In this document: one piece after another, positions 2,744-53,054 of the stretch
Layout of the letters: each line of letters starts with the position of its first letter
Position numbering within the stretch: position 1 is the stretch's first letter
From: Massospora cicadina
Lineage: Eukaryota; Entomophthoromycota; Entomophthoromycetes; Entomophthorales; Entomophthoraceae
Direction of reading: 5' to 3'
Assembly (NCBI GenBank): GCA_022478985.1
Contig: JAKSZP010000001.1
Coordinates: 372,001-436,000, forward strand
DNA length: 64,000 nt
Translations under genes and position numbers: made by a program
Notes under the pieces: model-generated
The model's input: only the letters and a program-made list of their open reading frames with translations
Databases searched by the model: none
Told to the model about the DNA's origin: nothing

Positions 2744-2749
2744 CGCACC

Positions 2750-16561: not shown

Positions 16562-17360
16562 TGTTGGACATTCACTTTCTCAACCTAGGAGAAAGAATGC
16601 TAAGGGTATGAATGCTCCTGAATCAACTACCTTGATTGGCCCATCACCAGCTCAAACTTCACATAATATTGTAGTCATTACCAATATGAGTACCAAAGGC
16701 GAAAAGACCCTAGTGGATTTTCAGTGGAATCCTGACTATCAGAGAAATAAGGATTATAATCAAAATTGGCTTAAAAAGGTATAAACTAATAATAGGATTA
16801 CTCCGACTTCTCAGCCAAATCTGAGGTGTTCAGTATCGCACAGATCCGAACCTCAGCGAGGTGAAAAGATTTTACCCATTAATGATTGGGTGTGAATGAA
16901 CAAATTATTACCACTCAGATCTGAACCCTCCCGAGGTATGATGATTCTACTCAACAATGATAGGTTAAGTATTAACCAATCATTACCACACAAGTAAGAC
17001 CACCGCTGAGGTGAAAAGATTTTACTCAAAGGTGATTGGATACAATACATCAAATCATTACCACACGGGTTGTTTTTGCCTCAAAAAATTTTATCTTCAA
17101 TCTGATAGGCCGAAAACCTATATTCCCTAATTTGGAGGACTGAGTTTTGTATTCTTTTGCCTCAAATATCAATGGTCTCAAAATACAAACTAGTTTAAAT
17201 AGGAAAAACTAGTATCAAGAAAGGGACCTTTCCTGGTTTTTGCCCTGCCTGAATAATAAAAACATAAAAAACTCTAACAAAGCAATATCCATTACTTTTT
17301 ATTAAAAAGTAAATTCTCATTTTAACAAAATAATTGTGGCATCCATTGGTGGATCCCACA
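16562..17360 (+). repeat. Gypsy-B 5' LTR
   Basis: About 799 bp, starting TGTTGGACATTC and ending GGATCCCACA. It matches 21513-22313 over the whole length. It contains several diverged copies of a short unit around CAGATCYGAACC followed by GAGGTATGA or GAGGTGAAAAGATTTTAC (near 16847-17035). Confidence 0.9.
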
Positions 17361-21512: not shown

Positions 21513-22313
21513 TGTTAAACATTCACTTTATCGACCTAGGAGAAAGAATGTTGGAGTTATGAGTGCTCCTGAATTGGCTACCTTGATTGGCCCATCACCA
21601 GCTCAAACTTCACATAATATTGTAGTCATTACTGATATGAGTACCAAAGGCGAAAAGACCCTAGTGGATCCTCAGTGGAATCCTGACTATCGGAGAAATA
21701 AGGATTATAATTAAAATTGGCTTAAAAAGGTAAAAACTAATAATAGGATTACTCTGACTTCTTGGCCAAATCCGAGTTGTTTGGTATCACACAGATCTGA
21801 ACCTCCATGAGGTGAAAAGATTTTACCCGTTGATGATTGGGTGCAAATGAACAAATCATCACCACTCAGATCTGAACCCTCCTGAGGTATGACGATTCTA
21901 CTCAACGATGATAGGGTAAGTATTAACCAATCATTACCACACAAGTCAGACCACCGCCGAGGTGAAAAGATTTTACTCAAAGGTGATGGGATACAATACA
22001 TCAAAACATTACCACACGGGTTGGTTTTGCCTCAAAAAAATTTTATCTTCAATCTGATAGGCCGAAAACCTATATTCCCTAATTTGGAGGACTGAGCTTT
22101 GCATTCTTTTGCCTCAAATATCAATGATCTCAAAATCCAAACTAGTTTAAATAGGAAAAACTAGTATAAAGAAAGGGACCTTTCCTGGTTTATGCCCTGC
22201 CTGAATAATAAAAAATCATAAAAAACTCTAACAAAGCGATATAAATTACTTTTATTAAAAAGTAAATTTCTCACTTTATAAAATAATTATGGCATCCATT
22301 GGTGGATTACACA
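21513..22313 (+). repeat. Gypsy-B 3' LTR
   Basis: 801 bp, TGTTAAACATTC to GGATTACACA, partner of 16562-17360. It is preceded by the purine tract TTGAGGGGGGCAA and followed by CAGGG. Confidence 0.9.
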
Positions 22314-27898: not shown

Positions 27899-27916
27899 TT
27901 AAATATAGGTATTATT
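27899..27916. repeat. Target-site duplication of half-LINE, left
   Basis: TTAAATATAGGTATTATT (18 bp) occurs exactly again at 29804-29821. Confidence 0.92.
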
Positions 27917-29803
27917 CAATTCAATTTATTCAAGGTACGCCAACCAGGGGATGGACAGTACTGATCACAACACTCAAAACGGCAAAACAAACTACTAACC
28001 AGGTGGGAAGCAGAAACTGCTTAACCCACCATGGCAGAGGGTGAGGAGGGGTCAGGGGGTGGGTTTTCAGAAGACCCACCTCGATCAAGGGGTGTTGGTT
28101 ACAGTACCAGATCAGAGCAGAGAGCCAGGGCGTTGGGGCGTTGGGGCATCTGCATAATGGGGGCTGAGGTCAGCGTAGTAGGAGTTTTCCACTTCTGCAT
28201 CAAGATAATGATGGGAAAGTGTTTCAATAAAAGCTGCAAGGAGAACTTCAGCTTCTTTGCGGGCTTCAGGAAGTTGGGTGAAAAGGGAGATACTGTGGCT
28301 TGTGATTTTAGCTGAGGGGTTGAATGAAGCTAGCGTTGCGACATTCATAACAGCGATTTCAGCATCATCAAATAGTTTTGAGATGTCACTGCAGGGAGAT
28401 TCAGGGAAGTCGGGGGGAAGAAGATGGCGGGAAGGCCATGCTGGAGCTGGGCCACTGACTGGGCCACCGCGGCGCGTAGTTTTGGGCAATGAGGAGAGGC
28501 CACCGCAGCTAAGGCGAGCTGGTGGTCACTTTGGAAGGGGGCTGTATTGGGTAGAGGAGCAAAATGGCGAGGGGTAGGGGCTTCATCGAAGTTGGGAAGG
28601 AAAAATTCTGCTGACCATAATCACCATGGCAGAGAGGTTGACCTGTATGCTTACTAATGAGGACATTACCTGATTCGTCAGTTTCAGCCAATTGATCCCA
28701 TGGATTTTGGTTCACTGGAATAGTGGGTAGGATTGGGCGAATGGGCAGCTGCTTGGGTGCAAATGTTGGTCCAAGCATTGCTCTGATTGGCTGGCGTAGA
28801 TTTAGGTGGGAGAGTGAGGATGGAGGTTTTGGGTGGGTCTGATTTTCCATGTGGGCCCACTGAACGAGATTGGAGGGTGGGAGGGGGCAGCAAAGTGCCC
28901 CATACTGAACCTCCAGAGGGGGGCTCAGAAGTTGCATCAGCGGATTTGGCCTTAGGGCACGCTCTTTTTGCATGGTCGAGGCTAAAGCAGAGGGAATAAA
29001 TCTGCCTACCATTATTGACCTGAGCCCAAAAGAAATGATCAGGTGCTGCAGCTACCCTAGCGCGGGGTGGGATTTGTTGGGCTATGGTAGGGTGGTGTGG
29101 TATGATGGTGGCTGTTGCACGAGGAGCAGCAAGGCGTTCTGCACCAGATGGAATGGCAAAGATGAGGTTGGGCTGAGTGCCATAAGCCATGAGCCCCGCG
29201 ACCAACTGGTCATACAAAACCTGGGGTGGAAGGTGGGATGTAAGATTTGCAAAGGATACCACTAGCGTGGTGTCTGAAGGGAGGCGAGTACAGGTTGTGG
29301 AAATGGGGTTTTTTTATAAACTAGAGGAGTTTGTGCTGCCGCTTCAGCATCCTCCTCAGATTGGAACCCAACGTCAAAGTAGCCCTTAAAAGGGCGGAAG
29401 TCTATAAAGCCAGCTGGCGCAAAGGCTGTAGTGACTAGGTCAATAATTGCCTTATCGGCATATGGGAACAAACGCCCATAGTCCACTCTGAGGCAATAGC
29501 GAATAGCAGAGCGAGGGAGGGCGAGAGGATGGGGGCGAGAAGGGTGGACGCGCTCCAGGTGGAGCGCTAAGTCCCGTGGGAGGACAAAACGGTTGGAAGC
29601 AGTGGGCGGGCTGTTTGAGCCCGTCTGAACGCGCTTGCCTGCAGGGCGGAAAACGCTAGGTGGGGGTGCACTGCTGCCCCACACTGGGGTGGCAGGCGGC
29701 AGAGCCAAGGACATCAAAGAATAGGTTTGGGCAGATGGCTGTGGATAAATAAACTTAAATTTAAAATCGCTCAAAAGTGACTTTGAGCGGTTAAAGAGAG
29801 TTT
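27917..29803 (-). mobile_element. Half-LINE copy 1: ORF1-only non-LTR element
   Basis: A complete 1,887-bp insertion between perfect 18-bp duplications. It holds one long broken ORF1 region (about 28020-29774) and no endonuclease or RT. Its 3' end carries the tail at 27934-27957, matching the LINE-A tail at 19 of 24 positions, then TTGAATAAATTGAATTG. Copy 2 at 62.4-64 kb has the same spacing from a conserved ORF1 block to the tail, so the short form is a family trait and not a one-off deletion. It resembles mammalian HAL1 in concept only. Confidence 0.85.
28020..29774 (-). pseudogene. Half-LINE ORF1, broken
   Basis: It begins 'MSDFKFKFIYPQP' at 29774, followed by a Pro/Ser-rich segment, then 'RYCLRVDYGRLFPYADKAI' and the conserved 'GFIDFRPFKGYFDVGF' near 29365-29412. 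After a frameshift near 29265 come 'TTLVVSFANLTSHLPP' and a run to 'IPSGAERLAAPRATATIIPH'. A knuckle-like 'YSLCFSLDHAKRACPK' near 28965-29010 lacks its first Cys (Tyr instead). Then come a Pro-rich part, 'NPWDQLAETDESGN' (near 28670-28710), and a last frame (28112-28489) with 'SDISKLFDDAEIAVMN'. The order of blocks parallels LINE-A and LINE-B ORF1, so an RNA-binding role is likely. Confidence 0.75.
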
Positions 29804-29821
29804 TTAAATATAGGTATTATT
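29804..29821. repeat. Target-site duplication of half-LINE, right
   Basis: Exact copy of 27899-27916. Confidence 0.92.
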
Positions 29822-31195: not shown

Positions 31196-31352
31196 ACTCA
31201 TCTTTTATAATATTGCACTAGCATTTTATTTTCTCTTTCTACGTTACTGTTTATAAGGGGTTTTAGGGCGCTAAAATAGTTGAGTTCCAATGTTTGTATC
31301 TAATATTTTCACGACTCTTATAGCTAAGTTCCTTTCATTTTTGAATATTAAT
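31196..31352. other. Short AT-rich spacer
   Basis: About 157 bp between the small LTR element and LINE-A2. I see no gene or repeat in it. It is probably a piece of older gypsy DNA that continues at 36657. Confidence 0.4.
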
Positions 31353-31368
31353 ACCTGCGGGCAAACAT
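31353..31368. repeat. Target-site duplication of LINE-A2, left
   Basis: ACCTGCGGGCAAACAT matches ACCTGCGGGAAAACAT at 36641-36656, one mismatch in 16. Confidence 0.92.
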
Positions 31369-31466
31369 AAAAGACTTTTCTTTCTCGTTGCAATCACTTT
31401 TGCAACCTATTCAATTCAAGACTGAATCTAGTCTGATAATCTCACAGAGGAGATTAGTTTGCGCCC

Positions 31467-32880
31467 ATGTCAGGGAGCAGTTGGGCAAGTAAGATAAGAG
31501 GAGCAGGTGGAAGACCCACAGCCTCCAACGTTCAGAAATGCCCCGGAGAAACTGGCGGAATAGACAAAAATTTTAAAAAACCGGTGGTCACTATTTCCCT
31601 GGAAATACTCACATGGCAAGCATGATGCAACCAGTACATCAACACACCACACTCCCAGCCACTTTTGTCAGTGGAATTTGGAGTCCGCGTATTTCTGGAC
31701 AGCCAACAAATGGCCTTATGGGAAAAATTTTGTGAAGATGTACACATAATTTTCCCGACCACAGTGTACGTCGCACCTCACTCCATGTCATGCAGCTGGC
31801 TGGACCTAAGTTTTGAAAGCAAAGAGGAAGCAGATGAGGCTGCTGTGGTGCGCGTAGTGGTCGACCACCCCAAAGGGCAACAGGTCGTCAAAACCAAGTG
31901 CACCAGATGGACAAAATCAAACCAAATTATCCTCACGTTTGACTTTTTGCCTACTATGGTAAAACGTGATATTTTGGAACAACACCTGAAAGATGGTCTT
32001 GCCGTATATGTCAAAATACAATCTTTTGAAATGCAACGCTTCACGCTGATGCCACACCTGTGCACCAGCAAAGCCATCGCAGTTCTGACCCCAACTGAGA
32101 AGATCGTAAAGGACCTAACCCAGATCCCACACTCCACTTTTATTGATATCGCAGGGCATACCACCCACCCATTATGGGTGACCATGGACAGCGCGCCCCC
32201 CATTTGCACCCACTGTGACGTGTTTGGCCATAAGGCACATGCATGCCCCATCAAGGAGGGCGTCACATTCTAAGAGCACCCCTCAGCGGCCATGGCCAAT
32301 GGAGAGGCGCACTACAAACCAACTGCAAGCACCAAGGAGGCTTTCCCGTGGGGAGCACAAGGCTGCTACCTACTGGTAAAGCCTATCTCCCCGCAAGAGC
32401 GGAAGAAGGCCAAGCAGGACCATAGGGCCGCGGCCAAGGAAGCGGCCAAGGCCACCACCGCTATCCCACACTTACAACGCCAGGAGGACATGGAAACCTT
32501 CGCAGCAGAAGCAACTTGGGAATCCATCAACCAATCAGATTGGGAAGCCCATGCTGAGTGGCCCACTCAATCCGAGGATCTGATGGGGGATTCAATCTCA
32601 CCCAATCGTTGCACCCAAGCTCTGGTTGAAACCAACTTGGGACCTATCCCAACTAAAAAATTTTTTTGACCCACTCAACGGTGCACTGAACTCATCCGCA
32701 CCGCAAAAAATTCATCTGACATTGGGAAAACAAAAAGCAAAGGCTAAAGCCAATGCAACACTTTCCACAAAAATTAATAAAAATCCCGATAGTGTTGCTG
32801 CTAACACCTGTGCTGCTGTGAAGGCCCGTGGGGATCTAGAGGAGGCTGGTGGGCCCAGGCGCCTACCCCCTCGCACCTAA
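31467..32880 (+). pseudogene. LINE-A ORF1, copy A2
   Basis: It starts MSGSSWASK. Conserved blocks are 'WEKFCEDVHIIFPTTVYVAP', 'SWLDLSFESKEEADEA', 'FLPTMVKRDILEQHLKDGL', the zinc knuckle CTHCDVFGHKAHAC (near 32206-32247), a Lys/Ala-rich linker and a tail ending 'EAGGPRRLPPRT'. Two stops (a TGA where A1 has CGA, after 'LTWQA'; a TAA at 32271-32273 where A3 has CAA) and a one-base slip in the A6T7 run near 32660 break it. The stop lies six bases before ORF2. The likely role is packaging of element RNA. Confidence 0.88.
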
Positions 32881-32886
32881 GGTGTG

Positions 32887-35800
32887 ATGGGGGAAACCTT
32901 CAAATTAGGGATGTTAAATATCGCCAGACTCAAGGCCTCCTCATCCTGGGCTAGGAAACTGAGTTTTTTACAACAAAATTTACCCGTGGATATCCTGGCC
33001 ATCCAGGAGTCCCACTGTCCCTGAGGTTACGAGGAAGCTTGGAAAACAATGCTCCTCCCATCCCTATCCTTTTGGTCAGAGCACTGTGGGGTGCTAGTTC
33101 AGAGAAATAATTTTTCCAAATTTTTATCCTCAGAAACATTCTAAATGGCTGATTACTCATCGTCACTTTTTTGTGGGCTGACGTAGCACATGCAATCATC
33201 AACATCTACACCCCAAATGGTGCACGCGAGCATCAGGAATTTTTCTCCTTGGTCAAATCCCTCCCGCTACCCCCAGACCCTTTTGTAGTCGGTGACATGA
33301 ACTGTTGGCTAAACACATCAATGGACTGGTGGCATTCCTCACCCCACGCCCCCCAGGGTCACATAGAACTGCGCGTTCTAAAGGCCACCTTGGGTTAATG
33401 GATGTGCTGCCGTGACATGCCCTGCTACTTGAAAACATGATGTGTCCCCACATCCATAATGGCCAATTAAGGTCCATGACCCGCATTGACCTTATCCTAA
33501 CGCTGGCAAAATTCCAACCCCTCATATCCCACTTCAAAACAACAAAAATGGAATTCTCTGACCATAGACTGGTCTCATTAACCTACCACCTACCTGTCAC
33601 AGCTGCTAAGGCCCCACATTGGTGCAAAATCTGCCCCTCCGAGCTTGCGTTGCCAAGATAATCCACATGGGTGGAAAAGGCAACTTTGGCAAAGAGTTTG
33701 TTGCACCATTTTGCGCGGACCCCATTTCCACATGGGCAACTTTCAAAGATGACACCAACTGCCACTCTCGCCATCTCTCCTCCTGATGCTCACAAGCCAC
33801 ATCGGCGGTCATTTCGCGCGCTCTGGCAGAGTTGGCACACCTGGAGTCCGATATCCCAGCTACAGGATACAGCTCTGCATGGGCTGGAAGTGGGCGGAGG
33901 CAGCTGCATCCCTTAACGCACTCAAAAGGCAATACAAATATCAGGTTTGTGTTCAGTACAGGGCCAACCGCATCACAAAAGGTGACAAGTGCACCGCATA
34001 TTTCTTTGAAAAAATTTTGCACCATGCCAGAGTGTGGCCTGCACACAGGTGTGAAGATCGGATGATTTGATCGCGGATATGCCAGCTGAAGTGGCAACTA
34101 AAACACAAAAGTATTACTCCAAGTTGTACTGATCTGATCCAATTCAGCCAGCTGAAGTGGCGGAATTTCTCGACCAAGCCCACATCCACACCATTTTCCA
34201 ATACTCGGAAATAATGAATTAGATTACTCCAAAGAAATTATGGACATCTATTCGCGGTGCACCAAACTGAAAATGCCCAGGCCCAGATGGCATTCCATAT
34301 GAATTCTACAAAAATTATTTCAAATATATATCCCCATTGCTGCTCGCCTCACTTAAACAAAGCCTGTTGGAAACGCGCCTCCTACCAGGAGGACATGAGG
34401 CCTTTACCGTCACACTCTTCAAGAAAGGGGATAAGCTAGACTTAGCCAACTGGCGCCCCATTTTTTTAACAAACACAGACACCAAAATATTAACAAAAAT
34501 CATGGCTAACCGTTTAGGTACTGTAGCTTCTGCCACCATCTCCCCAGAACGATTTAGTTTCATACCCAGAAGGTCATTTGGGATAACGTGCACTCTGTGG
34601 CTAATGCATTTCAGTCCAAAGCCTCTGGGGCACTTGTATTCTTGGACCAACAGAAGGCCTATGATAGAGTAAACTGGGAATACCTCAGGGCCTGCCTCGA
34701 TCAATTCCGCCCACCCCCCACTTCATAAACTGGGTGATGCTGCTCACGGAATCTGCAACAATGGCAGTACGTGGCCCTGGCTTCCTAACGAGAGTTTGCC
34801 CTCAAAGGGGCTTGTGACAAGGGGACTCCCTCAGCCCACTCTTATACAACTTCAGCCCTGACCCACTACTGCGAAATGTGAATGCCCAACTCACTGGGGT
34901 CCATGTGCCAGCCAAGCCCCAGTCAAGATAATGGCGTTCACAGATGATTGTGTGGTTGGGGTGTCTAATAATCAAGATGCACGCGTGCTTGAAGTTCTCA
35001 TCCAGGAGTATTCCCAGGTAAGTAACGCGGCACTGAACGCTTCCAAAAATGAAATCATCCTCCTTGATCGGTTTCAGAACTGCTGGGCCCCAGCAATTGG
35101 TTCCCAACCCGGCCCATCTGCACGCCCACGTCCTCGCCCTACCAACTCAACACACACCGCCCCACTGATGCTCCCCTTTGTGCCACGTCCTACCATAGGA
35201 CTGGTACGCCATCTGGGCATGTGGATGGAGGCAGGAGGATATGCATCAGAAGTAATGGAGAGCCGCATTCTGGACAACATAATGAAGCGAATCGCCTCTC
35301 TCAGAGCCCACCCTACTTCCCTTACTGGCAGGGTTGTTTTAGCCAACTCTATGCTCCTATCCAAAGTCTGGTTCAGAGCCCACGCCATCCCCTTCTCCCC
35401 AAGCTTCTTCAAATCCTTATATGCCCTGCTGCAAGGATGGCTTTGGTCAGGCCGCCCACCACCAGTATGGCTAGCGGTCATGTTTGGCCCTCATCATCAT
35501 GGTGGCATGGGTCTGCTCGACTTCAGAGCCCATGCTGACAAGATCTTGGGTACCTGGATAGCGGCCGTCACCGCTCCTACACTCCCATCCCAATACTGGT
35601 CCCGCGCAGCCCACTCCAACTTCTCCCGAGCCTTGGGCCTCAACAATCCATTGAATCCCCACTCCCTGATGAAATACCTCGCTTCACACCCATCGGCCAC
35701 AGGCCCTCACGGGACTAAAACCCACTACAAACGAATCCTCCTCTCCTTGAGGAGCGCTGAGTGGAGAATTTGTGTTAGCGGACATACAACCCAAAGAGGC

Positions 35801-36504
35801 TGTCCCTCTCCTCAGTTCACACAAGAGGTACAGGGGCTACCCATCCAAGATGACGTGATACCCATTCGGCCCCATGTCCTATCCAGGGTGGACTACCTGG
35901 ACATGATGGACATCCCTTACTCCATTGAGACCCAAAAATCTATCTGGAAATACGCACACCATCCTCTGTTGCAGCCTCAAGTCTGCTCCCATGTGTGGCG
36001 CTGCCTGAGGCGGGTGTATCATACAGCTGATCGCTCTAACTCTTTACACTCATCCTGTGTTGTGTGTGGCCAGTATGGAATGCTGTTCCACCGCCTGGAG
36101 AAGTGCCCCACCTCTAAAGTGATATGGCGCGAAGTTCAACGTCTGCTAGGCCAGGATCAAACGCATCCCTTCAGTCTGTCAAGAGATATGTTTGCTCTAT
36201 CAATGGCCTCCTCCCTTCCACTCTCCCTCCGTGCTCTGGTGGTTGCATCGCCATGTAGACCATCCACACGATTATCTTAGATGCCATCGCAGGCTCCACC
36301 CCCACCCTCCCAGAAGCTGTCCACAGATTCTGGTCTCATTTGGTGGACCACTTTCAAACGTGGATGTTTGGATACCTCCCACCGCGTTGCCAACAGCTGG
36401 TCTCCTCCTGGTTCCCAGTCTGGTTCATCAAATCAGACCCCTTCCTCCACACGTTTTCAATTGTGGCTATGGCCCCTTCACACGTTCCCTCCCCCTCCCC
36501 ATAA
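32887..36504 (+). pseudogene. LINE-A ORF2 (endonuclease, RT, zinc finger), copy A2
   Basis: About 1,200 codons. The endonuclease (32887-33660) has QESH near 33004-33015, 'AHAIINIYTPNGAREH', GDMN near 33293, 'MTRIDLILT' and SDH near 33560. RT blocks (34337-35080) are 'TLFKKGDKLDLANWRPIFL', 'DQQKAYDRV'-type residues, and the catalytic box as FTDD near 34935. The long open frame 34931-36280 then covers thumb and linker, 'HLGMWMEAGGYASEVMES' to 'SRVDYLDMMDIPYS', and the finger 'CVVCGQYGMLFHRLEKC' near 36058-36108. Stops at 33022 (TGA) and after 'VLP' (TGA) plus several frameshifts inactivate it. Confidence 0.9.
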
Positions 36505-36597
36505 GTGGCGTTCCCACTGGCAACAAGAGATAGCATCGCTTCTCTGGGGTGCCTTCCCTGTTACTAATTTTTGTCTCTTCTGAATCATATTCAGAAG

Positions 36598-36621
36598 TGT
36601 CCATCCCATGGTCAGCCTTCC
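36598..36621 (+). other. LINE-A 3' tail motif, copy A2
   Basis: TGTCCATCCC followed by ATGGTCAGCCTTCC, 19 bases before the insertion end. Matching tails occur in A3 (45375-45398), A4 (47782-47805), the half-LINE (27934-27957) and the SINE (39643-39666). A role as RT recognition site is inferred from its constant place at the 3' end. Confidence 0.7.
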
Positions 36622-36640
36622 CCGCAGTAAATTTAAATTT

Positions 36641-36656
36641 ACCTGCGGGAAAACAT
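36641..36656. repeat. Target-site duplication of LINE-A2, right
   Basis: ACCTGCGGGAAAACAT, partner of 31353-31368. Confidence 0.92.
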
Positions 36657-39614: not shown

Positions 39615-39629
39615 AAGAACTGCACTACT
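39615..39629. repeat. Target-site duplication of SINE, left
   Basis: AAGAACTGCACTACT matches AAGAACTGTACTACT at 39919-39933, one transition. Confidence 0.9.
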
Positions 39630-39642
39630 TTTATTTATCTGA

Positions 39643-39666
39643 GGCAAGCTGACCGGGGGACAGACA
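39643..39666 (-). other. SINE 3' tail shared with LINE-A and half-LINE
   Basis: The minus strand reads TGTCTGTCCC then CCGGTCAGCTTGCC, 13 bases from the insertion end. It is the only part of the SINE I could match to another element in the window. Confidence 0.7.
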
Positions 39667-39854
39667 TTACCAAAATAGAGAAAGTATCAACATGAAACCT
39701 GAGCAGGGTCAACTCTGTCATAGAAAGTTTTTTCACCTCCAGATCAGGACTCAGATTTTTCTGGTTACGTCATGGGTAAAGTTTTCGTGTTATTATACCT
39801 ACTAACCGCCAATAGTTTCCTTCGGCTGGCACCCTGATCGATGTGCGAAGGGCG

Positions 39855-39865
39855 GGAATCGAACC
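39855..39865 (-). promoter_or_regulatory. RNA polymerase III B box in SINE
   Basis: The minus strand reads GGTTCGATTCC, which fits the B-box consensus GGTTCGANTCC exactly, within a T-arm-like hairpin. Confidence 0.85.
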
Positions 39866-39894
39866 CGCAACCTTCAGGTTGGTAGCCGTACGCC

Positions 39895-39907
39895 CTACCA
39901 ACTCGCC
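39895..39907 (-). promoter_or_regulatory. RNA polymerase III A box in SINE
   Basis: The minus strand reads GGCGAGTTGGTAG, close to the A-box consensus TRGCNNAGYNGG, about 30 bases upstream of the B box. Confidence 0.75.
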
Positions 39908-39918
39908 TTCCACCCCCT

Positions 39919-39933
39919 AAGAACTGTACTACT
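39919..39933. repeat. Target-site duplication of SINE, right
   Basis: AAGAACTGTACTACT, partner of 39615-39629. Confidence 0.9.
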
Positions 39934-40130: not shown

Positions 40131-40146
40131 ATTAATCTTGGGATAA
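40131..40146. repeat. Target-site duplication of LINE-A3, left
   Basis: ATTAATCTTGGGATAA occurs exactly again at 45426-45441. The 197 bp between the SINE and this point (39934-40130) are AT-rich with no feature I can name. Confidence 0.95.
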
Positions 40147-40242
40147 AAAATTTTTCTTTCTTGTTGCAAACACTTTTGAAACCCATTCAATTCAAGACTA
40201 AATCTAGTTTGATAATCTCATAAAGGGGATTAGTCTGCGCCC

Positions 40243-41652
40243 ATGTCTGGGAGCAGTTGGGCAAGCAAGGCAAGAGGAGCAGGCGGAAGGCCTGCGGCCT
40301 CTAACATTCAAAAATGCCCTGGAGAATCTGGCGGAATAGAAAAAAATCTAAAATAACTGGCAGTCACAATTTCCCCGGAGATACTCTCATGGCAAGCATG
40401 ATGCAACCAGTACATCACACACCACATTCCCAGCCACTTTCATCGGTGGAATTCAGAGTCTGTGTGTATCTGGACATCCAAAAAATGGCCCTATGGGAAA
40501 AATTTTGTGAAGATGTACACAAAATTTTCCCAACCGCGGTGTATGTGGCACCTCACTCCATGTCATGCAGTTGGCTGGACCTAGGTTTCAAAAACAAAAA
40601 AGCAGCAGATGAGGCTGCACCAGTGTGCATAGTGGTTGACCTCCTCAAAGGGCAACAGGTTGTCGAAACTAAATGCACCAGATGGACAAAATCAAACCAA
40701 ATTTTCCTCACGTTTGACTTTTTGCCTATTATGGTAAAACGTGACATTTTGGAGCAACACCTGAAAGATGGTCTCACCATATATGGTGAATTACAATCTT
40801 TTGAAATACAACGCTTCACACTGATGCCACACCTGTGCACTGGCAAAGCCATCGCAGTTCTGACCCCAACTGAGGAGATCGCAAAGGACCTAACCCAGAT
40901 CCCACACTCCACCTTTATTGATATCGCAGGGCACACCACCCACCCATTCCAGGTAACTGTGGACAGCGCGCCCCCCATTTGCACCCACTGTGACGCGTTT
41001 GGCCATAAGGTGCACGCATGCCCCATCAAAGAGGGCGTCACATTCCAAGAGCACCCCTTGGCGGCCATGGCCAGTGGGGAGGCGCACTATGAACCAACTG
41101 CAAGCACCAAGGAGGCTTTCCCGTGGGGAGCACAAGGCTGCTACCTATTGGTAAAGCCCATCTTCCACAGGAGCAGAAGAAGGCTAAGCAGGCCTGTAGG
41201 ACCGCGGCCAAGGAAGTGTCCAAGGCCACCACCACCATCCCACACTCACAATGCCAGGAGGACATGGAGACCTTCACGGTGGAAGTGACTTGGGAATCCA
41301 TCACCCAATCAGATTGGGAGACCCATTCCAAATGGGCCACTCAATCTGAGGATCTGATGGGAGATTTGATCTCACCCAATCACTGCACCCAAGCCCCAGT
41401 CAAAACCGACTTGGGACCTATCCCAACCAAAAAATTTTTTTGCCCCACTCAACGGTGCACCAAACCTATCCGCACCGCAAAAAATTCATCCGACGTCAGG
41501 AAAACAAAAAGCGAAGGCCAAAGCCAACGCGACTCTTTCTGCAAAAATTAACAAAAACCCCAATAGCATTGCTGCTAATACCCGCGCTGCTGTGAAAGCC
41601 CTTGGGGACCTGAAAGAGGCTGGTGGGCCCGGGGGCCCACCCCCGCACCTAA
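40243..41652 (+). pseudogene. LINE-A ORF1, copy A3
   Basis: MSGSSWASKARG start with an early stop and a frame change near 40350, then a long open frame 40314-41288. Blocks: 'WEKFCEDVHKIFPTAVYVAP', 'SWLDLGFKNKKAADEA', 'DILEQHLKDGLTIYGE', 'LTQIPHSTFIDIAGHTTHPF', and the zinc knuckle CTHCDAFGHKVHAC (near 40984-41025, about residue 247). A frameshift near 41160 moves the Lys/Ala-rich tail to another frame. The stop is six bases before the ORF2 ATG. Confidence 0.88.
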
Positions 41653-41658
41653 GGTGTG

Positions 41659-44600
41659 ATGGGGGAAACCTTCACTCTAGGGACGCTAAATATCGCTGGA
41701 CTCAAGGCCTCCCCATCCCAGGCTAGGAAACTGAGTTTTTTACAAAACAATTTACCCGTGGATATCCTGGCCATCCAGGAGTCCCACTGTCCATGAGGTT
41801 CTGAGGATGCTTGGAAAACAATGCTCCTACCATCCCTATCCTTTTGGTCAAAGCACTGTGGGGTGCTATTTTGGAAAAACAATTTTTTCAAATTTATATC
41901 TTCAGAAATATTCCTAAATGGCTGGTGCTCGTTGTCACTTTCTTGTGGGCCAATGTAGTGCATGCAATTGTCAACATCTATGCCCCAAATGGTGCATGCG
42001 AGTGTCAGGAATTTTTCTCATCAGTCAAATGCCTCCCGCTACCCCCCAATTCTTTCCTAATTGGTGACATGAACTGTTGGCTAACCTCACCAACGGACCG
42101 GTGGCCGCCCTCACCCCACGCCCCACAGGGTCACATAAAACTACGCGTTCTAAAAGCCACCCTTGGGTTAATGGATGCGCTGCCATGACATGCCCCACTG
42201 CTTGAAAACATGATGCGTCCCCACATCCACAATGGCTAATTAAGGTTCATGACCCGCATCGACCTTATTCTAGCACTGGCGAAATTCCAACCCTACATCT
42301 CCCACTTCAAAACAACGAAAATGGAATTCTCCGACCACCAACTGGTCTCAATAACATACCACTTAACCGTCACAGTTGCAAAGGCCCCACATTGGTGCAA
42401 AATCCGCCCCTCCCCGAGTTCGCATCACCAGGATTTTCCATGTGGGTGGAAGAGGCAACTTTGGCGAAATTGTTTGTTGCACCATTTTGCGCGGACCCCA
42501 TTTCCACTTGGGCAACTTTCAAAGAGGACACCATCCGCCACTATTGCATCTCTCCTCCAGATGCTCACGAGCCACACCGGCGGTTATATCATGTGCACTA
42601 GCAGAATTGGCCCACTTGGAGTCCAACATTCCAGCCTCAGGATATAGCTCTGCATGGGGCCAGAAGTGGGCGGAGGTAGCCGCCCACCTCAATGCACTTG
42701 AAAGGCAACACAAACATCAGGTTTGTGTCCAATACAGGGCCACATGCATCACTAAAGGCGACAAGTGCACCACATACTTCTTCAAAAAAATTTTGCACCA
42801 CGCCAGAGCGTGGCCTGCACACAGGTGCAAAGATGGATAATTCTATTGTGGACACACCGGCAGAAGTGGCAATCGAAATGCAAAGATATTACTCCGAGTT
42901 ATACTGAGCTGAACCAATTCAGCCAGCCGAAATGGCGGATTTCTTGACAGAGCTCATATCTGCACCATTTTCCAATACCCGGAAATAATGAATTTAATTA
43001 TTCTGAACTAATTATGGACTACCATTTGTGGTGCGCCAAACCAAAAATGCCCAGGACCAGATGGAATTCCATATGAGTTCTACAAAAAATATTTAAATAT
43101 ATATCCCTATTGCTGCTAGCCTCACTCAACCAAAGCCTGTTGGAAATGCGCCTCCTACCAGGAGGACATGAGGCCTTCATTGTCACACTCTTCAAGAAAG
43201 GGGATAAGCTAGACTTAGCCAACTGGCGCCCCATTTCTCTAACAAACACAAACACTAAAATTTTAACAAAAATTATGGCTAACCGATTAGGGACTGTAGC
43301 ATCTGCCACCATCTCCCCAGAACAATTCAGTTTCATACCCAGAAGGTCATTTGGGATAACGTGCACTCTGTGGCTAATGTGTGTCAGTCCACAGCCTCTG
43401 GGGCACTTGTATTCTTGGACCAACAAAAGGCCTATGATAGAGTAAACTGGGAATACCTTAGGGCCTGCCTCCAAAAATTCGCCTACCTCCTCGCTTCATT
43501 AACTGGGTGATGCTGCTCACGGAATCTGCAACAATGGCAGTGCGCGGCCCAGGTTTCCTAACGGAAGTAGTCCGTCCTCAAAGGGGCCTGCGACAAGGGG
43601 ACCCCCTGAGCCCACTCTTATACAACTTCAGCCTTGACCCACTACTGCGAAATGTGAATGCCCAACTCACTGGGGTCCATGTGCCAGGCCAAACCCCAGT
43701 CAAGATGATGGCATTTGCAGATAATTGCATGGTGGGGGTGTCTAATAACAAAGATGCACGCGCGCTTGAAGCCCTCATCCAGGAATATTCCCGGGTAAGC
43801 AACGCGGCACTGAACGCCTCCAAAACTGAAATCATCCTCCATGGTCGGTTTCAGAACTGCTGGGCCCCAGCAAGTAGTTCCCAACCCGGCCCATCTGCTC
43901 GCCCACATCCACGCCTTGCTAACTCAAAACACACCGCTCCACTGGTGCTCCCCTTTGTGCCACGACCTACCATAGGACCGGTATGCCATCTGGGAGTGTG
44001 GTTGGAGGCAGGTGGATACGCGTCAGCAGTAATGGAGTGCCATATACTGGACAACGTAACAAAGCGAATAGCCTCTCTCAGAGCCCACCCTACTACCCTC
44101 ACTGGCAGGGTTGTTCTTGCCAACTCTATGCTCCTATCCAAAGTCTGGTTTGGAGCCCACGCCATCCCCTTCTCCCCAAGCTTCTTCAAATCCCTTTATG
44201 ATTTGCTACAAGGCTGGCTTTGGTCAGGCCGCCCTCCACCTTTACGGCTAGAGGTCATGTTTGGCCCTCATCATCATGGTGGCATGGGACTACTTGACTT
44301 CAAAGCACATGCCTCCAAGATCCTGGGTACCTGGATTGCGGCCGTCACTGCTCCTACACTCCCATCCCAACACTGGTCCCGCGCAGCCCGCTCCAACTTT
44401 TACCGAGCCTTAGGCCTCAACAATCCATCAAACCCCCACTCCCTGATGAAATACCTCGCATCACACACATCAGCCACAGGTCCTCACGGGACCAAAACCC
44501 ACTACAAACGAATACTACTCTCCATGCGAAGCGCAGAGTGGAGAATTCGTATTAGTGGACATACAACCCAAAGAGGCCGCCCCTCTCCTCAGTTCACACA

Positions 44601-45281
44601 AGAGGTACAGGGGCTACCCATCCATGATGGCGTGATCCCCATTCGACCCCAAGTCCTATCCAGGGTGGACTACCTGGACATGATGGACATCCCTTATTCT
44701 ACTGAGACCCAAAAGACTATCTGGAAATACGCACACCATCCTCTGTTGCAGCCTCAAGTCCGCTCCCATGTGTGGCGCTGCCTGAGGTGGGTGTATCGTA
44801 CAGTTGAGCGCTCTAATGCTTTACACTCATCCTGTGTCGTGTGTGGCCAGTATGGAACGCTGTTTCACCGCCTGGAGAAGTGCCCCACCTCTAAAGTAAT
44901 ATGGCGCGAAGTCCAACGTCTGCTAAGCCAGGATCAAACACATCCCTTCAGTCTGTCAAGAGATATGTTTGCTTCATCAATGGCCTCCCCCTCCCACCCT
45001 CCCTCCGTGCTCTGGTGGTTGCAATCGCCATGTGGACTATCCACACGATTGTCTTGGATGCCATCGCTGGATCCATCCCCACCCTCCCTGAAGCTGTCCA
45101 CAGATTCTGGTCTCATTTGGTGGATCACTTTCAAGCGTGGATGTTTGGATATCTCCCACCGCGTCGCCAACAGCTGGTCTCCTCCTGGTTCCCAGTCTGG
45201 TTTATCAAATCAGACCCTTTCCTCCACACGTGTTCAATTGTGGCTACGTCCCCTACACACGTTCCCTCCCCCTTCCCATAA
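41659..45281 (+). pseudogene. LINE-A ORF2 (endonuclease, RT, zinc finger), copy A3
   Basis: The endonuclease (41659-42420) has QESH, 'HAIVNIYAPNGACECQ', GDMN near 42064, 'MTRIDLILA' and SDH near 42330. It is cut by TGA at 41794-41796 and after 'ALP' near 42186. The linker (42376-42900) has 'KGDKCTTYFFKKI'. RT: 'TLFKKGDKLDLANWRPISL', 'GLRQGDPLSPLLYNFSLDPL', and the catalytic box altered to FADN near 43710, so the second Asp is lost. Then come 'HLGVWLEAGGYASAVMEC', 'FGPHHHGGMGLLDFKAHA' and the finger 'CVVCGQYGTLFHRLEKC' near 44836-44886. A frameshift near 44990 moves the last block, 'LVVAIAMWTIHTIVLDAIAG', out of frame. Confidence 0.9.
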
Positions 45282-45425
45282 GTGGCGTTCCCGCTGGCAA
45301 CAAGAGATAGCATCGCTTCTCTGGGGTGTCTCCCCTGGTACTAAGTTTTGCCTCATCTGAGTCATATTTGGAAGTGTCCATCCCATGGTCGGTCTTCCCC
45401 ATTATAGATTTAAATTTAAATTTAA

Positions 45426-46992: not shown

Positions 46993-47546
46993 TACACAGT
47001 GCATTCAAAAAGTACTGGGACTAACATTTTAAAGACACAACTTTACAAATAAATAAAGTTTCTTTTATCATAATTTAACATACAACCTTTCCCTCTATAT
47101 ACATATTTATATTGCTAAAACAATTGTTAAAAGGTATGCACATAGTTCCTTTTTGTATAACCATGTCTAAACCAGCTGTCACATTCTTCTGAATTGTCTC
47201 TACTTTATCAAAAGGATGAACCTTCAGTGCCACCTTCAGATTAGAGAACAGAAAGAAGTCAGACAGAGCCAAATCTGGTGAATAGGGTGGATAATTATAA
47301 TCTGAAGGTGGCACTGAAGGTTCAACCTTTTGATAAAGTAGAGACAATTCAGAAGAATGTGACAGCTGGTTTAAACATGGTTATACAAAATAGGAACTAT
47401 GTGCATACCTTTTAACAGTTTGTTTTACAATATAAATATGTATAAGAGGGAAAGGTTGTATGTTAAATTATGATAAAAGAAAGTTTATTTTTGTAAAGTT
47501 GTGCCTTTAAAACGTTAGTCCCAAAACTTTTTAAATGCACTGTTTA
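46993..47546. mobile_element. Palindromic (fold-back) mariner relic
   Basis: Flanked by TA at 46993-46994 and 47545-47546, the mariner target. The two arms, 46995-47243 and 47298-47544, are inverted copies of each other, about 248 bp each, around a 54-bp core. The outer ends read ACAGTGCATTCAAAAAGT and its counterpart. Both arms encode the same C-terminal transposase segment in opposite directions, and the core encodes the catalytic block only once. Confidence 0.88.
47075..47347 (-). pseudogene. Mariner transposase C-terminal fragment
   Basis: A 90-codon minus-strand frame. 'PPYSPDLALSDFFLF' (about 47250-47295) is the hallmark around the third catalytic Asp of mariner DDD transposases, followed by 'PFDKVETIQKNVTAGLDMVI'. 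The N-terminal domain and the first two Asp are absent. The opposite arm (47298-47430, plus strand) encodes the same 'PFDKVETIQKNVTAGL' piece again. Confidence 0.88.
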
Positions 47547-47745: not shown

Positions 47746-47761
47746 TTTACAGTTGCTAGTT
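47746..47761. repeat. Target-site duplication of LINE-A4, left
   Basis: TTTACAGTTGCTAGTT matches TTTATAGTTGCTAGTT at 53039-53054, one transition. Confidence 0.92.
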
Positions 47762-47898
47762 TAAATTTGAATTTATTGCGGGGAAGGCTGACCATGGGAC
47801 GGACACTTCCGAATATGAATCAGAAGAGACAAAACTTAGTACCAGGGAAGGCACCCCAGAGAAGCGATGCCATCTCTTGTTTCCAGTGGGAACGCCAC

Positions 47899-50800
47899 TT
47901 ATGGGGAGGGGAGGGAACGTGTGAAGGGGCCATAGCCACAATTGAACACGTGTGGAGGAAGGGGTCTGATTTGATGAACCAGACCTGGGAACCAGGAGGA
48001 GACCAGCTGTTGGCAACGCGGTGGAAAAATCCAAACATCCACGTTTGAAAGTGGTCCACCAAATGAGACCAGAATCTGTGGACAGCTTCCTGGGAGGGTG
48101 GGGGTGGAGCATGCGTTGGCATCTAAGACAATTGTGTGGCTGGTCCACATGGCGATTGCAACCACCAAACCACTGAGGGAGAGTGGAAGGGAGGAGGCCA
48201 TTGGTAGAGCAAACATATCTCTTGATAGACTGAAGGGATGCGTTTGATCCTGGACCAGCAGACGTTGAACTTCGTGCCAAATCACTTTAGAGGTAGGGAA
48301 CTTCTCCAGGCGGTGGAACAGCATTCCATACTGGCCACACACGACACAGGATTAGTGTAAAGCGTTAGAGCGCTCATCTGTACGATACACCCGCCTCAGG
48401 CAGCGCCACACATGGGAGCGGACTTGAGGCTGCAACAGAGGATGGTGTGCGTATTTCCAGATAGTTTTTTGGGTCTCAATGGAGTAAGGGATGTCCATCA
48501 TGTCCAGGTAGTCCACCCTGGATAGGACATGGGGCCGAATGGGGATCACGCCATCTTGGATGGGTAGCCCCTGTACCTCTTGTGTGAACTGAGGAGAGGG
48601 ACAGCCTCTTTGGGTTGTATGTCCGCTAACACAAATTCTCCACTCAGCGCTCCTCATGGAGAGGAGGATTCGTTTGTAGTGGGTTTTAGTCCCGTGAGGG
48701 CCTGTGGCCGATGGGTGTGAAGCGAGGTATTTCATCAGGGAGTGGGGGTTCAATGGGTTGTTGAGGCCCAAGGCTTGTGAGAAGTTGGAGCGGGCCGCGC
48801 GGGATCAGTGTTGGGAGGGGAGTGTAGGGGCGGTGACGGCCGCTATCCAGGTACCCAAGATCTTGTCAGCATGGGCTCTGAAGTCGAGCAGACCCATGCT
48901 ACCATGATGATGAGGGCCAAACATGACCTCTAGCCATACTGGTGGTGGGCGGCCTGACCAAAGCCATCCTTGCAGCAGGGCATACAAGGATTTGAAGAAG
49001 CTTGGGGAGAAGGGGATGGCTTGAGCTCCGAACCAGACTTTGGAGAGGAGCATAGAGTTGGCTAAAACAACCCTGCCAGTAAGGGAAGTAGGGTTGGCTC
49101 TGAGAGAGGCGATCCGCTTCGTCACGTTGTTTAGAATATGGCACTCCATTACTGCTGACGCGTATCCTCCTGCCTCCATCCACACGCCCAGATGGCGTAC
49201 CTGTCCTATGGTAGGGCGTGGCACAAAGGGGAGCACCAGTGGGGCGGTGTGTGTTGAGCAGGTAGGGCGAGGACGTGGGCGAGAAGATGGGCCGGGTTGG
49301 GAACCAATTGATGGGGCCAGCAGTTCTGAAACTGACCAAGGAGGATGATTTTGATTTTGGAAGCATTCAGTGCCACATTACTTATCCAGGAATACTCCTG
49401 GATGAGAGCTTCAAGCACGCGTGCATCTTGATTATTAGACACCCCAACCACACAATCATCTGAGAACGCTATTATTTTGACTGGGGCTTGGCCTGGCACA
49501 TGGACCCCAGTGAGTTGGGCATTCACATTTCTCAGTAGTGGGTCAAGGCTGAAGTTTTATAAGAGTGGGCTGAGGGAGTCCCCTTGTCACAAGCCCCTTT
49601 GAGGGCGGACTACTTCCGTTAGGAAGCCAGGGCCACGTACTGCCATTGTTGCAGATTCTGTGAGCAGCATCACCCAGTTGATGAAGCGAGGGGGTAAGCA
49701 GAATTGATCGAGGCAGGCCCTGAGGTATTCCCAGTTTACTCTATCATAGGCCTTCTGTTGGTCCAAGAATACAAGTGCCCCAGAGGCTGTGGACTGACAC
49801 ACATTAGCCACAGAGTGCACGTTATCCCAAATGACCTTCTGGGTATGAAACTGAATTGTTCTGGAGAGATGGTGGCAGATGCTACAGTACCTAAACGGTT
49901 AGCCATGATTTTTGTTAAAATTTTGGTGTTTGTGTTTGTTAAAAAAATGGGGCGCCAGTTGGCTAAGTCTAGCTTATCCCCTTTCTTGAAGAGTGTGACG
50001 GTAAAGGCCTCATGTCCACCTGGTAGGAGGCGCGTTTCCAACAGGCTTTGGTTAAGTGAGGCGAGCAGCAATGGGGATATATATTTGAAATAATTTTTGT
50101 AGAATTCATATGGAATGCCATCTGGGCCTGGGCATTTTCAGTTTGGTGCACCGCGAATAGCTGTCCATAATTTCTTTGGAGTAATCAAATTCGTTATTTC
50201 CGAGTATTGGAAAATGGTGTGGATGTGAGCTCAGTTGAGAAATTCTGCCACTTTGGCTGGCTAAATTGGATCGGATTGGTACAACTCAGACTTATACTTT
50301 TGTGTTTCAATTGCCACTTTGGCTGGCATATCCGCAATGGAATCATCAGATCTTTTCACCTGTGTGCAGGCCATGCTCTGGCGTGGTGCAAAATTTTTTT
50401 AAAGAAATGTGCGGTGCACTTGTCACCTTTTGTGATGCATTTGGCTCTGTACTGAACACAAACCTGATGTTTGTGTTGCCTTTCAAGTGCGTTGAGGTGG
50501 GCGGCTGCCTCCACCCACTTCTGGCCCCATGCAGAGCTGTATCCTGCAGCTGGGATATTGGACTCCAGGTGTGCCAACTCTTCCAGAGCGCGTAAAATGA
50601 CTGCCAATGTGGCTCGTGAGCATCTGGAGGAGAGATGGCGAGAGTGGTGGATGGTGTAATCTTTGAAAGCTGCCCATGTGGAAATGGGGTCCACACAAAA
50701 CGGTGAAACAAACTTTTTTGCCATAGTTGCTGATTCCACCCACGTGGAGAATCCTAGTGACGCGAGCTCAGAGGGGCGGATTTTGCACCAATGTGGGGCC

Positions 50801-51525
50801 TTAGCAGCTGTGACAGGTAGGTGGTAGGTTATCAAGACCAGTCAATGGTCAGAGAATTCCATTTTTGTTTTTTTAAAGTGGGATATGAGGGGTTGGAATT
50901 TTGCCAGCGTTAGGATAAGGTCAATGCGGCTCATGGACCTTAATTTGCCATTATGGACGTGGGGACACATCATGTTTTTGAGTAGCGGGGCATGTCACGG
51001 CAGCACATCCATTAACCCAAGGGTGGCCTTTAGAATGCGCAGTTCTACATGACCCTGGGGGGCGTGGGGTGAGGAAGGCCACCGGTCCATTGGTGTGTTT
51101 AGCCAACAGTTCATGTTGCCGACTACAAAAGGGTCTGGGGGTAGTGGGAGGGATTTGATCAATGAGAAAAATTCCTGATGCTCGCGTGTACCATTTGGGG
51201 CATAGAAGTTGATGATTGCATGTGCTACGTCAGCCCACAAGAAGGTGACAACAAGAACTCAGCCATTTAGGAATGTTTTTGACGATAAAAATTTGAAGAG
51301 ATTATTTCTCTGAACTAGCACCCCACAGTGCTCTGACCAAAAGGATAGGGATGGGAGGAGCATTGTTTTCCAAGCTTCCTCGTAACCTCAGGGACAGTGG
51401 GACTCCTGGATGGCCAGGATATCCACGGGTAAATTTTGTTGTAAAAAACTCAGTTTCCTAGCCCAGGATGAGGAGGCCTTGAGTCTGGCGATATTTAACA
51501 TCCCTAATGTGAAGGTTTCCCCCAT
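47899..51525 (-). pseudogene. LINE-A ORF2 (endonuclease, RT, zinc finger), copy A4
   Basis: The endonuclease starts at 51525. It has QESH, 'HAIINFYAPNGTREHQEFF', GNMN for GDMN near 51110, and the SDH box changed to SDH/W at a stop near 50855. It shares the TGA codons after 'HCP' and after 'VLP' with A2. The linker (50356-50835) is open and ends with 'KGDKCTAHFFKKI'. RT: 'TLFKKGDKLDLANWRPIFL', 'LDQQKAYDRVNWEYLRACL', and the catalytic box FSDD near 49460. Thumb: 'HLGVWMEAGGYASAVMEC' and 'MGLNNPLNPHSLMKYLASHP'. The finger 'CVVCGQYGMLFHRLEK' ends in Phe and not Cys (near 48300-48350). Confidence 0.88.
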
Positions 51526-51531
51526 TGCACC

Positions 51532-52944
51532 TTAGGTGTGAGGGGGTGGGCACCCAGGACCACCAGCCTCCTCTAGATCCCCATGGGCCTTCACAGCAGC
51601 ACAGGTGTTAGCAACAACACTATTGGGATTTTTGTTAATTTTTGTGGAGAGAGTTGCATTGGCTTTAGCCTTCACTTTTTTGTTTTCCCAATGTTGGAAG
51701 AATTTTTTGCGGTGCAGATGAGTTCAGTGCACCGTTGAGCGGGTCAAAAAAATTTTCAGTTGGGATGGGTCCCAAGTCAGTTTCAACTTGAGCTTGGGTG
51801 CAACGATTGGGTGGGATTGAGTCCCCCATCAGATCCTCAGATTGAGTGGCCCACTCAGCATGGGCTTCCCAATCTGATTGGTTGATGGATTCCCAAGTTG
51901 CTTCCACTGTGAAGGTTTCAATGTCCTCCTAGCGTTGGGAGTGTGGGATAGCAGTGGTGGCTTTGGCCACTTCCTTGGCCGCAGCCCTGTGGGCCTGCTT
52001 GGCCTTCTTCCACTCTTGTGGGGAGATAGGCTTTACCAGTAGGTAGCAGCCTTGTGCTCCCCACGGGAAAGCCTCTTTGGTGCTTGCAGTTAGTTTGTAG
52101 TGCGCCTCTCTGCTGGCCATGGCCGCCGAGGGGTGCTCTTGGAATGTGACGCCCTCCTTGGTGGGGCATGTGTGTGCCTTATGGCCAAACGCGTCACAAG
52201 GGTGCAAATGGGGGGCGCGCTGTCCACAGTCACCCAGAATGGGTGGGTGGTATGCCCTGCAATATCAATAAAAGTGGAGTGCTGGATCTGGGTTAGGTCC
52301 TTCGCAATCTCCTCAGTTGGGGTCAGGACTGCAATGGCTTTGCTGGTACACAGGTGTGGCATCAGCGTGAAGCATTGCATTTTAAAAGATTTTATTTTGC
52401 CATATACAGTGAGAACATCTTTCAGGTGTTGTTCCAAAATGTCACATTTTACCGTAGTAGGCAAAAAGTCAAACATGAGGAAAATTTGGTTCGATTTTGT
52501 CCATCTGGTGTATTTGGTTTTGAAAACCCATTGCCCTTTGGGGAGGTTGACCACTACACGCACCACAGCAGCCTCATCTGCTGCCTCTTTGTTTTCGAAA
52601 CCTAGGTCCAGCCAACTGCGTGACATGGATTGAGGTGCAACATACACCGCGGTCAGGAAAATTGTGTGCACATCTTCACAAAATTTTTCCCATAAGGCCA
52701 TTTGTTGGATGTCCAGAAACACACAGACTCCGAATTCCACCAACAAAAGTGGCTGGGAGTGTGGCATGTTGATGTACTGGTTGCATTGTGCTTGCCATGC
52801 GAGTATTTCTGGGGAAATAGTGACCACCAGTTTTTTAAAATTTTTGTCTATTCTGCCAGTTTCTCCAGGGCGTTTTCAAACGTTGGAGGCCGTGGGCCTT
52901 CCACCTGCTCATCTTACCTTACTTGCCCAACTGCTCCCTGACAT
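51532..52944 (-). pseudogene. LINE-A ORF1, copy A4
   Basis: The best preserved middle part of the family: 52090-52827 is open, from 'MVTISPEILAWQAQCNQYIN' through 'SWLDLGFENKEAADEA', 'DILEQHLKDVLTVYGK' and 'IDIAGHTTHPFWVTVDSAPP'. A frameshift inside the zinc knuckle (after CT, near 52200) breaks CTHC, but 'DAFGHKAHTCP' continues in the next frame. The tail 'GPIPTENFFDPLNGALNSSA' is in frame here and shows the original reading through the A/T run that slipped in A2. Two TGA codons lie in the first 30 codons. Confidence 0.88.
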
Positions 52945-53038
52945 AGGCCAGACTAATATCCTCTGTGAGATTATCAAACTAGATTCAGACTTGAATTGAA
53001 TAGGTTGCAAAAGTGATTGCAATGAGAAAGAAAAGTTT

Positions 53039-53054
53039 TTTATAGTTGCTAGTT
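53039..53054. repeat. Target-site duplication of LINE-A4, right
   Basis: TTTATAGTTGCTAGTT, partner of 47746-47761. Confidence 0.92.

Follow-up and report, generated by a model that had tools for sequence, protein, structure and literature searches.

Do a SINE, an element coding for ORF1 alone and a full LINE that lie in one stretch of a fungal genome carry the same 3' tail, and does one kind of LINE machinery copy all three? The question is raised by positions 372001-436000 of contig C1 in the 1.47-Gb assembly (16,968 contigs) of the giant, repeat-rich genome of Massospora cicadina, a fungal parasite of cicadas; this is a stretch of 64,000 nucleotides that we call the window. A first-pass annotation of its sequence had joined a SINE, a half-LINE and LINE-A into a three-tier set on the likeness of their 3' ends. 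The elements concerned and their landmarks are given below; the covariance model (CM) was built from 12 tails, three of them from window copies that match it by construction.

39630-39918, minus strand: tRNA-type SINE, 289 bp, with its tRNA-like head near 39918 and its tail near 39643
39643-39671, minus strand: SINE tail stem-loop, 29 nt (CM match 39633-39671, 60.7 bits; the copy is itself in the model)
39615-39629: 3'-side target-site duplication (TSD) of the SINE, 15 bp, one mismatch to the 5'-side TSD
39919-39933: 5'-side TSD of the SINE, 15 bp, one mismatch to the 3'-side TSD
27917-29803, minus strand: half-LINE, an ORF1-only element of 1.9 kb; ORF1 decayed, no reverse transcriptase (RT) frame seen
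27934-27962, minus strand: half-LINE tail stem-loop (CM match 27924-27962, 58.5 bits; the copy is itself in the model)
27899-27916: 3'-side TSD of the half-LINE, AATAATACCTATATTTAA, 18/18 identical to the 5'-side TSD
29804-29821: 5'-side TSD of the half-LINE, 18 bp, perfect
31369-36639, plus strand: LINE-A copy 1, about 5.3 kb (tail CM match 36593-36632)
31352-31368 and 36640-36656: TSDs of LINE-A copy 1, one mismatch
40143-45420, plus strand: LINE-A copy 2 (tail CM match 45370-45409, 40 bits)
47760-53049, minus strand: LINE-A copy (tail CM match 47771-47810, 57.5 bits)
1-4262, minus strand: LINE-A copy, 3' end cut by the window edge
62441-64000, minus strand: second ORF1-only element, decayed, its tail (62441-62455) weak and its 5' end outside the window
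7800-13730, plus strand: LINE-B, bounds approximate, with a different 3' end; negative control

The SINE, the half-LINE and LINE-A end in one 29-nt motif followed by a short A-rich repeat that adjoins the TSD. The conserved core of the motif consists of TGTCCGTCCC, two variable bases and GGTCGGC, and is closed by a 5-bp outer stem of varying sequence, after which the short A-rich repeat begins. The SINE family tail derived from 28 aligned copies reads GGTAATGTCCGTCCCCCGGTCGGCTTGCC, then TCGAATAAATAAAATAAA; that of LINE-A, from 30 copies and with CpG decay allowed for, reads GGAAGTGTCCGTCCCATGGTCGGCCTTCC, then CCGCAATAAATTTAAA. Direct reading reproduces the agreements reported by the first-pass annotation, 18 of 24 positions between the SINE and LINE-A copy 1 and 19 of 24 between the half-LINE and LINE-A copy 2. 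Its placing of the tails near TSD-defined ends holds as well: those of the SINE, the half-LINE and LINE-A adjoin TSDs of LINE type. Likeness between the SINE and the other families starts 0-6 bases before the outer stem, with none found further upstream. Copies of the SINE, LINE-A, the half-LINE and LINE-C (a second LINE described below) differ mainly at CpG, changed to TG or CA, as if repeats in M. cicadina were methylated or otherwise mutated.

The window copy of the SINE is statistically marginal: 18 of 2000 dinucleotide shuffles are as good against the LINE-A majority tail and 37 of 2000 against the window half-LINE, with 0 of 2000 against half-LINE copy L059. The consensus of the 28 SINE copies upholds the claim that the match goes beyond shuffled sequence, no shuffle in 2000 being as good against LINE-A (uncorrected majority), the window half-LINE or L059, and none in 1000 against LINE-A and LINE-C; the likeness beyond chance that the 3' ends of a stringent-type LINE/SINE pair should show is present. 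A pattern made from LINE-A and half-LINE tails (at most 3 mismatches) has five matches in the window, each at the end of one of the five elements, where 0.10 would be expected; it reaches the SINE tail only when all 3 mismatches are used; a looser pattern gives 6 matches against 3.68 expected, which is not above chance. The covariance model finds five ends in the window at 40-61 bits, two of them outside the model; a sixth, at 62441, is weak (17.9 bits, E 0.018), and nothing else exceeds 10 bits. An exact core pattern that does not admit the SINE and LINE-A had a single match, a half-LINE.

The common stem-loop for which the first-pass annotation had proposed to fold the tail RNA is indeed found: two sets of tails, one of 12 that represent about eight kinds of element and one of 34, fold alike, with covariation in the outer stem. 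In the folded SINE consensus (-11 kcal/mol, and -9.5 kcal/mol for the window copy) the 5-bp outer stem leads to a G-C pair, a bulged U, CCG/CGG, a U.U mismatch and CC/GG, capped by a loop of 3 nt, and RNAalifold, run without a given structure, predicted 10 of the 11 pairs. Among the 12 tails, 87.9% of cells are paired and 14 carry a double change, against 5.1 in shuffles (0/500 as high); slid versions reach at most 49% paired and 2 double-change cells. The 34 tails, of which 30 are distinct and 31 rows come from loci that the first set lacks (some of these rows repeating the SINE consensus used there), give 87.0% paired and 26 double-change cells against 11.7 in shuffles (0/500), and at most 47.6% and 9 when slid. 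Three of five covariation measures exceed all shuffles. Two do not rise above them: at least as many pairs show a double change in 187/500 shuffles for the 12 tails and 347/500 for the 34, and further pair types are at least as numerous in 476/500 and 389/500. The informative pairs are 3/27 (U-A, A-U, U-G) and 5/25 (A-U, C-G, G-C). Pair 5/25 is open in 15 of the 30 distinct tails, mostly those of LINE-C, and pair 1/29 in 7, while variation at pairs 10/22 and 11/21 is largely CpG decay (C-to-T, G-to-A). The double changes reflect few family-level events, and fold z-scores are modest (-0.36 to -2.43). Outer stems read GGTAA, GGTAT, GGTAC or GGAAG and loops CCC, CCT or CAT; the repeat unit differs as well, and one protein would need to tolerate all this variation.

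The SINE is short and occurs in dispersed copies flanked by TSDs, as expected of a tRNA-derived SINE. The best 40 of 5312 first-look candidates were scored and are 94-100% identical to the query (100% being the query itself); all first-look candidate numbers (5312, 1133, 3681, 4918, 5494 and 7268) differ in kind from copy numbers, only 40 or 150 candidates having been scored. A variant in locus L063, 80% identical to the window SINE, also bears the tail. Read by eye, with motifs that we take to be those of A and B boxes, the head contains a B-box-like GGTTCGATTCC and an A-box-like stretch. ARAGORN detected no tRNA, and no Rfam tRNA family matched at the gathering threshold or up to E 5 (same-clan overlaps left out); at that latter limit Rfam gives a 14-bit tmRNA match over the T-arm of the head. 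The Rfam scan of the whole window returned nothing at the gathering threshold. TSDs score at least 13 in 24 of the 28 copies, the others being L001 (12, the window copy), L011 (11, at a contig end), L003 (9) and L024 (4); in L023 and L026 the TSD alignments extend to 27 and 23 bp because the TSDs run into the A-rich repeat. Of the 24 copies with a clear TSD, 18 have a pyrimidine just before it and 18 have A as its first base. Similar TSDs flank the three half-LINE and three LINE-A copies examined (3/3 each), and the TSDs of all three kinds of element are compatible with insertion by target-primed reverse transcription, the work of a LINE that carries an endonuclease.

The single half-LINE that the first-pass annotation had placed in the middle tier gives way to a set of diverged ORF1-only families: four sequence types, two of them repeated, that align colinearly for as much as 1.9 kb. 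The full 1.9 kb is present in seven of the eight half-LINE loci fetched, the window copy among the seven, and the tail, which the query included, in all eight; the element codes for ORF1 without an RT, in the manner of HAL1. Locus L062 (contig C10329, minus strand) contains two different ORF1-only elements in tandem, head to tail, and the same AGGTACACTTT sequence occurs before, between and after them. The first of the two, element 2, has the CpG-corrected tail GGTAATGTCCGTCCCCTGGTCGGCTTACC, present in 12/12 further 3' ends (again with the tail in the query). Leading protein alignments among the half-LINE, element 2, element 3 and the element at 64000-62441 are about 37-66% identical; the last two were each represented by one copy in the material examined, and the 64000-62441 element shares 66.6% nucleotide identity over 806 bp with an element in L062. 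Mismatches between element 2 and the half-LINE number 158, 127 and 253 at codon positions 1, 2 and 3 over 416 codons, and this third-position excess points to past selection on ORF1, whether the sources under selection had ORF1 only or were full-length parents outside the copies seen.

The ORF1 of the half-LINE resembles that of LINE-A weakly (23.6% over 157 aa, E 1e-5) and LINE-B weakly as well (35.6% over 73 aa). Its 17 database relatives are all hypothetical proteins of M. cicadina, none with a listed Pfam domain; a zinc knuckle is visible by eye, for which Pfam gives only 11.2 bits. The ORF1-only families may have arisen by repeated loss of ORF2, as in HAL1; unlike HAL1, which derives from L1, no LINE with an ORF1 close to that of the half-LINE was found in a non-exhaustive comparison covering LINE-A and LINE-B. 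The 5' ends of LINE-A and the half-LINE are alike (AAACTTTTCTTT-like) at 31369-31406 in LINE-A copy 1, at 29803-29760 in the half-LINE (minus strand), at 5377-5420 of locus L060 and in L064. This start is followed by hairpins whose loops resemble each other (GTTGCAA-TCACTT-TTGCAAC; CGCTCAAA-GTCAC-TTTTGAGCG) in two of three LINE-A and three of three half-LINE copies folded, and a 5' structure common to both is possible from these predicted folds. A more distant tail type, CGGTGCGGTACCGTCCCCAGGTCGGCCCACC, occurs in unassigned elements at L060:8626-8665 (28 bits) and L061:333-371 (minus strand, 17.5 bits) and is perhaps another branch of the tail class.

Turning to the full LINEs, all 30 LINE-A loci fetched, out of 40 matches, carry the tail (which the query included), as do one LINE-A neighbour and all four of the further LINE-A copies to which zf-RVT led; of the 30 tails a strict pattern retained 27, and the covariance model covers them all. 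PF00078 (RT) matches two LINE-A frames (4e-11 and 7.6e-24), zf-RVT at the ORF2 C-terminus of one copy attains 25.3 bits against a cut-off of 27.5, and two LINE-A stretches gave no Pfam endonuclease match. The ORF2 protein has distant relatives only, the nearest being RTs of Rhizopus, Lichtheimia and plants (21-37% identity), besides unnamed ones. Judged by these nearest relatives LINE-A is probably L1-like, and so is LINE-C by way of its tblastx likeness to LINE-A (43-66% identity in alignments of at least 70 residues), through which its RT was recognised too. LINE-C came to light at C35 as a decayed, 5'-truncated copy with a zf-RVT match of 30.7 bits, above the cut-off. Its tail is present at 20/20 further 3' ends with 22-57 bits, the query having included the tail and the model having been built without LINE-C.

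LINE-B was rejected as a partner of the SINE because its 3' end, GATGAATCCCCCC...GGGACCATC with an A-rich stretch after it, fails to match. The covariance model found the tail in 0 of 34 sampled LINE-B copies, 33 of them with a complete 3' end and one (L096) cut short there; a weak match in L101 (14.3 bits) falls outside LINE-B. The LINE-B end is likewise C-rich and scores 17 against the SINE, with 116/1000 shuffles as good. We examined 40 of 141 zf-RVT places: 12 chosen by the tool and 20 chosen by us from the rest, all LINE-B, and 8 chosen by us for an unusual profile match, which proved to be four LINE-A, two LINE-B, one LINE-C and one unassigned element without the tail. By eye, GATG...CATC surrounds CCC/GGG ahead of an A-rich end at 13640-13730 and in LINE-B loci L073-L084; LINE-B may thus have a 3' stem-loop of its own, a second recognition class in the genome.

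We consider it highly probable that the tail is an RNA stem-loop, recognised most likely by the L1-like LINE-A/LINE-C group, and that the ORF1-only elements and the tRNA-headed SINE bear the same signal. This reading builds on what is observed, namely the motif, its fold and the outer-stem covariation, together with its 3'-junction position in examined copies, its occurrence on three kinds of element and its absence from the sampled LINE-B. A tail common to a LINE, ORF1-only elements and a SINE suggests that the same kind of LINE machinery copies them. An RT of the LINE-A/LINE-C type would recognise the tail core and stem and start target-primed reverse transcription in the A-rich repeat; two non-autonomous tiers, the ORF1-only elements of about 1.9 kb and the tRNA-headed SINE, would use the same signal, and, speculatively, ORF1 from half-LINEs may act in trans as a coat for the RNA of the SINE or of LINEs. 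We infer from sequence comparison that a LINE protein binds the tail, that it moved all tiers, and which LINE moved which element.

Of the three-tier set first proposed, one structured tail class on SINE, ORF1-only elements and LINE-A, beside LINE-type TSDs, stands, but LINE-A need not be the partner of the SINE. Another LINE with a better match to the SINE tail had been named beforehand as evidence against the proposal, and LINE-C is such a LINE in mild form, with 26/29 against 23/29 for LINE-A. By hand count over 29 nt of the CpG-corrected forms, the closest tail found is that of ORF1-only element 2 (27), followed by LINE-C (26), the half-LINE (25) and LINE-A (23); alignment scores against the SINE, which for LINE-C, element 2 and element 3 come from single copies, are 58 for the half-LINE, 56 for element 2, 44 for LINE-C, 41 for LINE-A, 41 for element 3 and 17 for LINE-B. 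Identity to the query among the best 40 matches is 94-96% for LINE-A, the half-LINE and the SINE, 86-89% for LINE-C and 87-89% for element 2, a rough clock only, as the measure is taken to single query copies. The two identity groups suggest two waves, in each of which a LINE was accompanied by an ORF1-only element; the SINE sides with the younger wave by identity and with the older by tail. The SINE and element 2 would then be partners of LINE-C and the half-LINE a partner of LINE-A, in pairs separate in time and not one three-tier set. To this we give a little under an even chance: the order of tail agreement and the split in identity speak for it, but the best SINE copies fall in the younger group despite their older-type tail, the alignment score with the SINE is marginally higher for the half-LINE than for element 2, and ages read from identities to one copy are rough. 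A layered parasitism, in which LINE-C and then LINE-A were exploited by a long-lived and diversifying ORF1-only lineage whose own selected ORF1 gave nucleocapsid in trans, and in which the SINE took its tail from an ORF1-only element of the element 2 type and not from a LINE, seems rather unlikely to us.

That the tail is a relic of common descent without present function we regard as improbable. LINE-A and the half-LINE are alike at their 5' ends and weakly so in ORF1, as such descent would have it, but the SINE has a tRNA-like head and only the tail in common with them, the outer stem has undergone double changes, and the copies examined have the tail at their 3' junction. Chance or composition, that is, look-alike C-rich 3' ends, we hold to be practically negligible: the marginal window copy of the SINE (18/2000 and 37/2000) and the chance-level result of the looser window pattern would accord with it, but the SINE consensus is unmatched by any of 2000 shuffles, the C-rich end of LINE-B does no better than its score of 17 (116/1000) and has no CM match, and LINE-C, absent from the model, has the tail in all 20 further 3' ends sampled.

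Recognition of a stem-loop tail by the LINE-A/LINE-C group would have parallels elsewhere. The eel LINE UnaL2 and its tRNA-type partner UnaSINE reportedly share a stem-loop 3' tail, much as the LINE and the SINE do here. UnaL2 is not known to be an L1-type LINE; unlike the eel pair, the present system combines a LINE that is L1-like by its nearest relatives, a fungal host and a protein-coding middle tier with the same tail. The eel work is mentioned in the excerpted text of PMC3747384, which also describes, as what appears to be the closest precedent, maize LINE1-1_ZM with ZmSINE2, ZmSINE3 and sorghum SINEs: an L1-clade LINE whose conserved 3' hairpin, with compensatory stem changes, is common to tRNA SINEs. 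That hairpin differs in its UCU loop and 3' CGAG, and the same excerpts describe no ORF1-only tier. Stringent hairpin-based recognition by an L1-clade LINE is proposed there for one plant lineage, and two fungal pairs with a common 3' end are named, Mg-SINE with MgL and SINE2-1_BG with Tad1-24_BG (PMC3747384). Both fungal pairs, as far as the excerpts go, belong to ascomycetes, the second with a Tad1-type LINE, whereas the LINE here is L1-like and its host entomophthoralean. Mammalian L1 is generally held to recognise poly(A), and HAL1 ends in poly(A), whereas the half-LINE tail is structured. In Drosophila, HeT-A is an ORF1-type-only element thought to depend on a relative, TART, for its RT; the likeness to the half-LINE lies in that coding content, HeT-A and TART being telomere-specific and without a known common SINE. 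The half-LINE is like HAL1 in having ORF1 only; the mammalian half-L1 is described in the excerpts of PMC5753468 as non-autonomous, encoding ORF1p only, of several origins and derived from L1. An expansion of LINEs in M. cicadina is noted in the text seen of PMC10515909, whose main text does not contain the whole word SINE, and in the open-licence literature searched we met with no description of either SINEs or ORF1-only elements from Massospora. Tail-sharing LINE/SINE pairs of animals, plants and two ascomycetes and half-L1s are thus known, and their combination was not found in that literature.

A second case of an L1-like hairpin, in a fungus, would offer natural tail variants on three kinds of element, and these variants, with the co-resident tail-less LINE-B, form a ready comparison set for template choice by LINE RTs. 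The ORF1-only families raise the question of why ORF1 was kept without an RT for so long. Elsewhere in the window, a long inverted repeat at 46999-47542 (ATTCAAAAAGTACTGGGAC...) looks mariner-like by eye, and three 75-bp-spaced units occur at both 16834-17064 and 21785-22015, about 5 kb apart, around Ty3-type polymerase frames.
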